Positions 56,288-64,000 of a stretch of DNA of 64,000 nt are shown here, piece by piece (position 1 is the first letter of the stretch; each line of letters starts with the position of its first letter). A program made the translations under genes and the position numbers. The stretch comes from Candidatus Bathyarchaeia archaeon (lineage in GTDB: Archaea > Thermoproteota > Bathyarchaeia > 40CM-2-53-6). The stretch spans positions 62,001-126,000 of the forward strand of contig DASYWW010000011.1 of assembly GCA_035935655.1 (NCBI GenBank), given 5' to 3'. The notes below the pieces were generated by a model that was not told where the DNA came from, did no database searches, and was given only the letters and a program-made list of their open reading frames with translations.

Positions 56288-57402
56288 TTACCTCGCTTCC
56301 AACCTCTTCATCTGTTCCAGGGGTTCAGGGTGTTTTCCAAAATACTCTCTGACTCCACTGAGGATTTCAGCTAGTATTCTTGCCATGTTTGCTTTGAGGT
56401 CCTGCGGGTGGATCTTTCCGGTCTTGTACGCTTCTTCGAGCTCTTTGTATGTAGCGAATTTCAGGTCTCCTCCGAACTTCTGATCTCGAGCCAAAGTAAC
56501 AGTCTTGTATCTGGGAAAGGCGAGGAGGCGGTAGTACTCGATTACTGGATTACCCTCGACTATTTTCGGTGGGCAGTACGCTTTGCGTAGCTTCTCCTCG
56601 ATGACGCCAGGGGAGTCGTGGAGCATTATCGTGTTCTCAGGCTTGCTCTTTGACATCTTCGCTGCGATCACGCTGCTCAGCTTCGGATCCTCATCATAAC
56701 TTCCCCTGTCAGATCCCTGTAAGCCATCTAGGCCCATCAGCATAGGAGTGTGGAGAGCAACCGGTTTTCCCCATCGCAACTTTTCGCCTGCCTCTCGTGC
56801 TAGCACGTGGGCTTTTCTCTGGTCTATTCCCGCGCAAGCCACGTCTAGGCTCATCTCGAATATGTCAGCAGCCTGCATACACGGATAGAACAGGGTGGCG
56901 GCCTCGACTTCTTGGGTTTTCAAGTCGCGCCCCATGATCGGTAGTGCCCGCATTACACGTTGTGCCGTGGTCGTTTTGGCGACCCGGATGACTCTCTCCC
57001 AGTAGTTGGGGTTGCTGGCAAGTTTCGAGGCCCAGACGTACTCAACCTTATCTTCGTCCAGTCCCAATGCTGTGAAGCAGTGCTTGAAGTACTCACCCGC
57101 TGTCTCGATCTTTTCCATGTCCCCTCCATACTTGTTATTGATCATGCTGTGCCAGTCTGCAAGGAATATGATGAAGTGGAATCCTGCCTGGACCATGTCC
57201 TTGATTTTTGAGCCGCAGACGAGTCCTGTGCCGATATGCATCATTCCAGGCAGCTGATCTAGACCAGTTGCTTTCCGGAGCATTCAAAGCCCCAGTAAGC
57301 TCGGGGCTTCTTTTTCTCTACCAGGACGCGCTCCAGTTCTGCAGGCTGAATGATCTCTATAGTTCCGTTTGTGACAAGTTCGAGGCGTTGCCTCGGGTCC
57401 AT
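56288..57402 (-). CDS. tyrS: tyrosyl-tRNA synthetase interrupted by a 29-nt insert
   Basis: Charges tRNA-Tyr. The true start is ATG 57402 (GGAGG at -6), giving MDPRQRLELVTNGTIEII and reaching GFECSG at about residue 40. The frame then hits UAG inside a 29-nt insert (57273-57245). Dropping it joins MMHIGTGLVCGSK in frame and yields 361 residues. The rest is archaeal/eukaryal TyrRS: IFLADWHSMINNK, YPCMQAADIF, AGIDQRKAH, KMSKSKPENTI (KMSKS), KAYCPPKIVEGNP, KFGGDLKFATYKELEE. Without excision, only the second part, starting at 57283, could be made, lacking the ATP-binding start. Confidence 0.85.
57245..57273 (-). other. 29-nt hairpin insert in tyrS, candidate minimal mRNA intron
   Basis: Nucleotides 57271-57250 form a stem of about nine pairs with one mismatch and a CUAG loop. 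Outside it, UCCGG (57279-57275) pairs with CUGGA (57249-57245) with a three-A bulge on the 5' side. Beyond that AUGC/GCAU can pair with a 5-nt bulge on the 3' side. GGAA is repeated at both joints. It resembles a relaxed bulge-helix-bulge site. Confidence 0.55.
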
Positions 57403-63219: not shown

Positions 63220-64000
63220 CTAGCCCTTCGCTACTCCTATTGGGGTCATTCGTACAACCTTCTGCCCTATTCCCAGCTGATGACTCACTTCGACCACTCT
63301 ATCGACATCCTTGTATGCGCCGGGCGCTTCTTCGGCCAGCACCTCCATGCTGGCAGCACGAATAACTATCCCCTGACTCTCCAAACTCTTCTTGAGATCT
63401 CCCCCCAACCATTTCCGTTTTGCACCGGAGCGGCTCATGAATCGGCCTGCCCCGTGAGCTGTCGTTCCGAAGCTAAGTTCCATCGCTCTTGGAGTTCCGA
63501 TTAGAACCCAACTGCTAGTGCCCATGCTTCCTGGGATGAGGACGGGTTGGCCTACGTCTCTGTATTCCGCTGGGATATCGTGGTGGCCAGGAGGAAATGA
63601 CCGGGTTGCCCCTTTTCTGTGAACAGTCACCTTCTTTGTTTCTCCGTCGATCATGTGGGATTCGACTTTTGCTACGTTGTGGGCGACATCGTAGACGATC
63701 TTCATGTCAAGAGAATCCGCTGGCCGTTGGAATACCTTCGAGAAAGCTTCTCTCGCCCAATGGGTTATCATTTGTCGGTTGACAAATGCGAAGTTGCAGG
63801 CGGCCGACATGGCGGGAATGTAATCCTCAGCTTCGGGACTCTTGCTTGGGCAAGCCGCCAGCTCCCGGTCAGGGAGCTTGATGTTGTACTTGTTGATCGC
63901 TCTCTCCATAACGCGAAGGTAGTCGCTGCACGTTTGGTGACCGTATCCCCTACTTCCAGTGTGAATCAGAACAAGAATCTGGCCTTCCTTATGAATGCCG
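63220..64000 (-). CDS. rtcB: tRNA-splicing ligase RtcB, N-terminus beyond the window
   Basis: About 259 residues of the C-terminal part. [16 protein letters not shown] holds a metal His, [11 protein letters not shown] is the conserved Asn region, [11 protein letters not shown] the His-Asn, [10 protein letters not shown] the next site, and [22 protein letters not shown] the catalytic His with GTP attachment. RtcB joins tRNA halves after intron removal. It continues past 64000. Confidence 0.97.

Follow-up and report, generated by a model that had tools for sequence, protein, structure and literature searches.

The tyrosyl-tRNA synthetase (TyrRS) gene, tyrS, of many soil and sediment Bathyarchaeia is interrupted by a short insert that is most likely removed from the transcript by the tRNA-splicing machinery, as predicted from comparison of these genomes. 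We consider it highly probable that the insert is a bulge-helix-bulge (BHB) type mRNA intron, predicted to be spliced by the endonuclease EndA and the ligase RtcB. This reading draws on conservation at one site, RNA structure, covariation, a rule governing the exon junctions, selection on both exons and the presence of the enzyme genes, and it is from these that we infer that the transcript is cleaved and ligated in vivo.

The gene lies in the window, that is, the whole 64-kb stretch of DNA that was analyzed, and the source assembly comprises 65 contigs (2.5 Mb, completeness 95.8%). On the minus strand, the TyrRS frame starting from the ATG at 57402 reads MDPRQRLELVTNGTIEIIQPAELERVLVEKKKPRAYWGFECSG-KQLV-stop, with KQLV directly after GFECSG, and the remainder of the enzyme is found in another frame, as a 331-aa ORF at 56288-57283. 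Removal of 29 nt yields a single TyrRS of 361 residues, which scores 412.5 bits against the NCBIfam tyrosine--tRNA ligase model NF006330 over residues 1-357, whereas the unjoined pieces score 372.6 bits (downstream ORF) and 28.2 bits (upstream piece). The sequence is as the original prediction had described it, with tyrS split by a 29-nt insert at the ATP-binding region of TyrRS and 361 residues encoded once the insert is removed. That prediction had allowed for a second tyrS elsewhere; a search of the whole source assembly found none. The parts of the gene and of the predicted motif, in the register that is argued for below, are as follows, all on the minus strand:

57273 to 57402, minus strand: tyrS exon 1, 130 nt, made up of 43 codons and the first base of a split codon; dN/dS 0.063
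57244 to 57272, minus strand: predicted BHB intron AGCAACTGGTCTAGATCAGCTGCCTGGAA, 29 nt, phase 1, between bases 1 and 2 of a Met codon
56288 to 57243, minus strand: tyrS exon 2, 956 nt including the stop codon; dN/dS 0.067
57280 to 57283, minus strand: 5′ strand of the outer helix, AUGC, in exon 1
57275 to 57278, minus strand: exon 1 side of the central helix (5′ strand), CCGG, within the Ser-Gly codons
57272 to 57274, minus strand: 5′ bulge, AAA, with the predicted cut between 57273 and 57272
57250 to 57271, minus strand: intron hairpin, with an inner helix GCA/UGC, an A.C mismatch and then CUGGU/AUCAG enclosing CUAG
57246 to 57249, minus strand: intron side of the central helix (3′ strand), CUGG
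57240 to 57245, minus strand: relaxed 3′ bulge, AAUGAU (5 nt if an extra U57279-A57245 pair forms), with the predicted cut between 57244 and 57243
57236 to 57239, minus strand: 3′ strand of the outer helix, GCAU, in exon 2
63220 to 63999, minus strand: C-terminal portion of the candidate ligase RtcB, which continues past the window edge

By itself, the window copy is only moderately convincing as an intron, and the case rests on related genomes. Folding of this copy alone gave a z-score of -1.84, and a 71-nt piece of it has a minimum-free-energy structure other than the BHB. A motif-only scan of the window for a BHB combined with the reading frame returned about 22 unrelated chance candidates and missed the tyrS intron because of the A.C mismatch in its stem.

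A pattern search of 257 Bathyarchaeia genomes identified 32 carriers, and a pattern allowing for a long gap added one more (G050, 53 nt), so that the same-site insert is present in 33 of the 257 genomes, which belong to seven families (f1, the family of the window, and f2, f4, f5, f9, f20 and f27). The original prediction had proposed that related genomes be searched for the same insert or for an intact gene, and the aligned tyrS loci contain both: the insert is at exactly one site in many relatives and absent from many others. It is present in every genome of the window's genus in which a tyrS was found, and some of the carriers are single-contig assemblies. The inserts range from 19 to 53 nt and fall into all three length classes modulo 3 (among 28 distinct copies, the remainder is 0 in 7, 1 in 5 and 2 in 16), and the unspliced reading fails in all 28 owing to a stop, a lost frame, or both. 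A short, frame-disrupting insert at one conserved site of an essential gene is what characterizes BHB mRNA introns of the cbf5 type. One genome, G105, has an intact intron-bearing copy on contig C19 and a second tyrS copy on contig C4 (L134, L143), which carries a 19-nt insert and in which exon 2 becomes degenerate shortly past the HIG motif; this degenerate copy is counted among the 28 that were compared.

When 398 Thermoproteota genomes were searched with a covariance model, the tyrS intron was found only in Bathyarchaeia. Weak matches to the model (23-26 bits, 29 bases) were read as intronless tyrS and set aside. In the TyrRS tree the carriers are clustered, and the presence pattern needs up to 10 changes, of which well-supported branches force only 3. 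A single origin of the intron therefore does not follow, and its history may be that of an old intron with repeated loss, as has been argued for cbf5, or one of repeated gain or transfer.

All copies share a common plan, in which exon 1 ends in C[UC]GG and two bulge bases, one more bulge base and the intron hairpin follow, and CCAG, CUGG, CCGG or ACGG and two further bases then precede exon 2. The central helix of about 4 bp between exon 1 and the intron, together with the 3-nt 5′ bulge, was found throughout, with pairs 1-3 formed in 30 of 30 copies and the innermost pair in 25 of 30, being G.A in the other five; pairing in the outer helix is weak where the variable codon is AGT or CCT. The 3′ bulge measures 5-6 nt in all copies instead of the canonical 3 nt, which excludes only the canonical subtype, since relaxed motifs occur in both cbf5 and tRNA introns (PMC2738675, PMC6379350). 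The predicted tyrS motif is thus canonical in its 5′ bulge and relaxed in its 3′ bulge (5-6 nt); the original prediction had given bulges of 3 and 5 nt. Beyond this structure the intron has no conserved sequence, and we therefore assign it no function of its own.

The pairing is also reflected in how the sequences vary. In 24 distinct reduced sequences, 94.6% of the cells were paired compared to 87.0% in shuffled alignments, 40 cells were changed on both sides compared to 15.9, and the covariation score was 0.409 compared to 0.246, with none of 500 shuffles reaching the observed pairing, double-change and covariation values, although the relatedness of the sequences inflates these shuffle-based statistics and likewise weakens the p-values. 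Controls in which the strands were slid were at most 48.6% paired, and RNAalifold, given the full alignment without prompting, found both the central and the inner helix, with the two partners altered in five pairs. Pair 2 of the central helix switches between U-A and C-G, coupling the wobble base of the exon Ser codon to a base of the intron. All 28 carriers encode this Ser-Gly as UCY-GGA, compared to only 1 of 39 non-carriers (Fisher p 5e-18). Furthermore, the outer helix sets the wobble base of the Glu codon against that of the His codon, and the two are associated when the intron is present (Fisher p 0.008), whereas genes lacking it show no such association (p 0.51).

As the original prediction had noted for GGAA, GGA or GGAA is repeated at both joints, and the register is therefore ambiguous from the sequence of a single copy alone. 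EndA cuts the cbf5 intron between bulge nucleotides 2 and 3 (PMC2738675). The same cut in tyrS would place Leu (TTA, CTA, TTG or CTG) at the junction in 15 of 15 copies outside f1 and Met (ATG) in 13 of 13 f1 copies, and with this uniform Leu or Met the exon borders are consistent with cleavage at that position. In 39 intronless homologs the corresponding residue is Leu in 29, Met in 5, Phe in 4 and Pro in 1, and never Ile or Val; Met is also the residue in L010 and L026, two relatives from f1 that lack the intron. A register one base earlier, directly after GGA, was rejected, as it gives Ile or Val in most non-f1 copies, residues that are absent from intronless genes. Since the junction residues obtained with the cbf5 rule match those of the intronless homologs, we place the intron at 57272-57244, in phase 1. 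The length of 29 nt given originally is retained, while the position given with it, 57273-57245, is one base off.

The codons around the insert also bear on translational bypassing, in which the ribosome would leave the message at GGA, skip the hairpin and land on a matching codon. The bypass element of phage T4 gene 60 is a hairpin insert with a GGA take-off codon and a nearby UAG, and the tyrS insert resembles it in the hairpin, the GGA and the nearby UAG: in f1 the resumed frame is likewise preceded by a GGA triplet and a hairpin follows the take-off, and in several families a UAG comes directly after the take-off GGA. However, the tyrS landing codon is mismatched in most lineages, the triplet being AGA in most other families (AGT in L025), which a Gly tRNA cannot read. 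In both carrier lineages GGA at this position goes with a TCC Ser codon, to which base pairing links it, and base pairing to the exon ahead of the take-off is not something that bypassing requires. We consider bypassing very unlikely. It is also highly unlikely that TyrRS is made as two polypeptides, with exon 2 translated from its own ATG; ATGs do occur at or just after the insert, but the nucleotide-binding motif would be severed between GFECSG and HIG, leaving about 45 residues, and neither the covariation nor the junction rule would be explained.

Programmed frameshifting, or read-through of UAG (for example as pyrrolysine), would produce a TyrRS with extra residues, and it is true that the downstream frame opens at 57283 and that some inserts of 21-30 nt contain an in-frame UAG. 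Nevertheless, the extra residues would fall in the ATP-binding loop, the codon use and covariation would be left unexplained, and no single recoding event with a constant frame change fits all copies, since their lengths span three classes modulo 3 and their stops differ; the chance of this reading is extremely small. The original prediction had also raised a broken gene or an assembly error, and a frame is indeed interrupted in a metagenome assembly. Both readings are refuted by the relatives, as the same site is occupied in 33 genomes including single-contig assemblies, tyrS is single-copy, and purifying selection is equal on the two parts instead of relaxed (among nine genomes of the same genus, exon 1 has a dN/dS of 0.063 and exon 2 one of 0.067), the similarly low values implying that both sides are translated and constrained.

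For a BHB intron, candidate splicing enzymes are encoded in the source genome. Two EndA-family genes are present: the alpha gene, which retains the Tyr-His-Lys region and has the Aeropyrum pernix subunit as its best match (3p1z, E 2e-41), and a divergent partner, beta. The enzyme is accordingly predicted to be of the two-gene, heteromeric type and may assemble as a heterotetramer. Such an EndA is found with cbf5-type introns, and the heteromeric two-gene form has been linked to relaxed substrates (PMC2738675, PMC6379350). A candidate ligase is present as well, the RtcB that had been noted at the right edge of the window. Its matches (63220-63999; G000:C11:125223-128030) form two pieces about 1.5 kb apart in one open frame of 1006 aa, an arrangement that may reflect an intein in this protein. 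Several tRNA loci of the same genome (among L180-L190) have D-loop and anticodon-loop inserts, and one has both; such inserts would be expected with an EndA that takes non-standard introns. The tRNA-Pyl (CUA) called by ARAGORN at L185 (1501-1591) is probably a miscalled intron-containing tRNA.

The cbf5 gene served as a positive control. In the source genome it is also interrupted, on the same contig but outside the window (L197 about 1205-2292; G000:C11 near 48.2-49.2 kb), by a 23-nt insert forming a textbook BHB with 3-nt bulges, CUCU-AG/A-GGUCCU-CCUU-AGGACC-GGAG-UA/A. This intron interrupts the codon for the catalytic Asp after its first base, which is the known crenarchaeal cbf5 site. A cbf5 insert of 17-30 nt was present in 29 of the 30 Bathyarchaeia loci examined, both in carriers of the tyrS intron and in non-carriers (e.g. 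G020; L227).

Taken together, the shared site in 33 genomes of seven families, the covariation, the junction rule, the two-subunit EndA and RtcB strongly support the earlier suggestion of a minimal, relaxed BHB intron. In the mechanism we propose, exon and intron of the tyrS transcript would pair into a relaxed BHB consisting of the 4-bp central helix (exon CCGG with intron CUGG), the 3-nt 5′ bulge, the intron hairpin and a 3′ bulge of 5-6 nt closed by the exon-exon helix. Heteromeric EndA would then cut each bulge behind its second nucleotide (57273 and 57244), and RtcB would ligate the exons into one frame for a 361-aa TyrRS, with the Met codon across the joint.

The original view that archaeal mRNA introns of the BHB type are few agrees with the literature searched, in which cbf5 is the one case confirmed within a coding sequence. 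A 2020 report on an intron in a 5′ UTR stated that the only other known archaeal BHB intron of this kind was that of the cbf5 mRNA (PMC7714728), and other putative archaeal mRNA cases were predicted without confirmation (PMC2738675). The literature within reach of our search, which excluded preprints and most subscription journals, contained no mention of introns in tyrS or in Bathyarchaeia mRNAs, and no confirmed coding-sequence case in archaea besides cbf5, including after the 2020 report. tyrS appears to be the second, predicted, host gene of coding-sequence BHB introns in archaea, and since a second essential gene has a conserved intron, tRNA-type splicing of coding mRNA would not be peculiar to cbf5. 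It is possible, if somewhat less than probable, that the repertoire of BHB mRNA introns in Bathyarchaeia exceeds that of every archaeal group described so far and extends to several essential genes routinely misread as frameshifts or broken genes, with splicing by the tRNA machinery a routine step of mRNA expression. The tyrS of carrier genomes looks frameshifted and can mislead annotators; at the same time, its copies provide a rich natural alignment of predicted EndA substrates, with exon-exon and exon-intron covariation at synonymous sites.

Among known systems, Haloferax HVO_1309 has a 46-nt BHB intron that is cut by EndA and, like the tyrS intron, resides in an mRNA, but it lies in the 5′ UTR and not in coding sequence (PMC7714728). 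Archaeal tRNA introns, which form hBHBh′, hBH and HBh′ motifs, share with the tyrS intron the structural logic and the predicted cut positions, whereas the tyrS motif lies in an mRNA, where coding constrains the exon strands (PMC6379350). The cbf5 pre-mRNA intron, described in Desulfurococcales and Sulfolobales, is likewise short (16-44 nt), in phase 1, located at an active-site motif, BHB-like with often relaxed motifs and a variable interior, and distributed with losses across a clade, and it occurs in genomes with a heteromeric EndA (PMC2738675). The tyrS intron differs from it in its gene, in the archaeal class in which it occurs and in its consistently longer 3′ bulge (PMC2738675), and its helix sequence is CYGG, compared to CUCU in the cbf5 of Bathyarchaeia.
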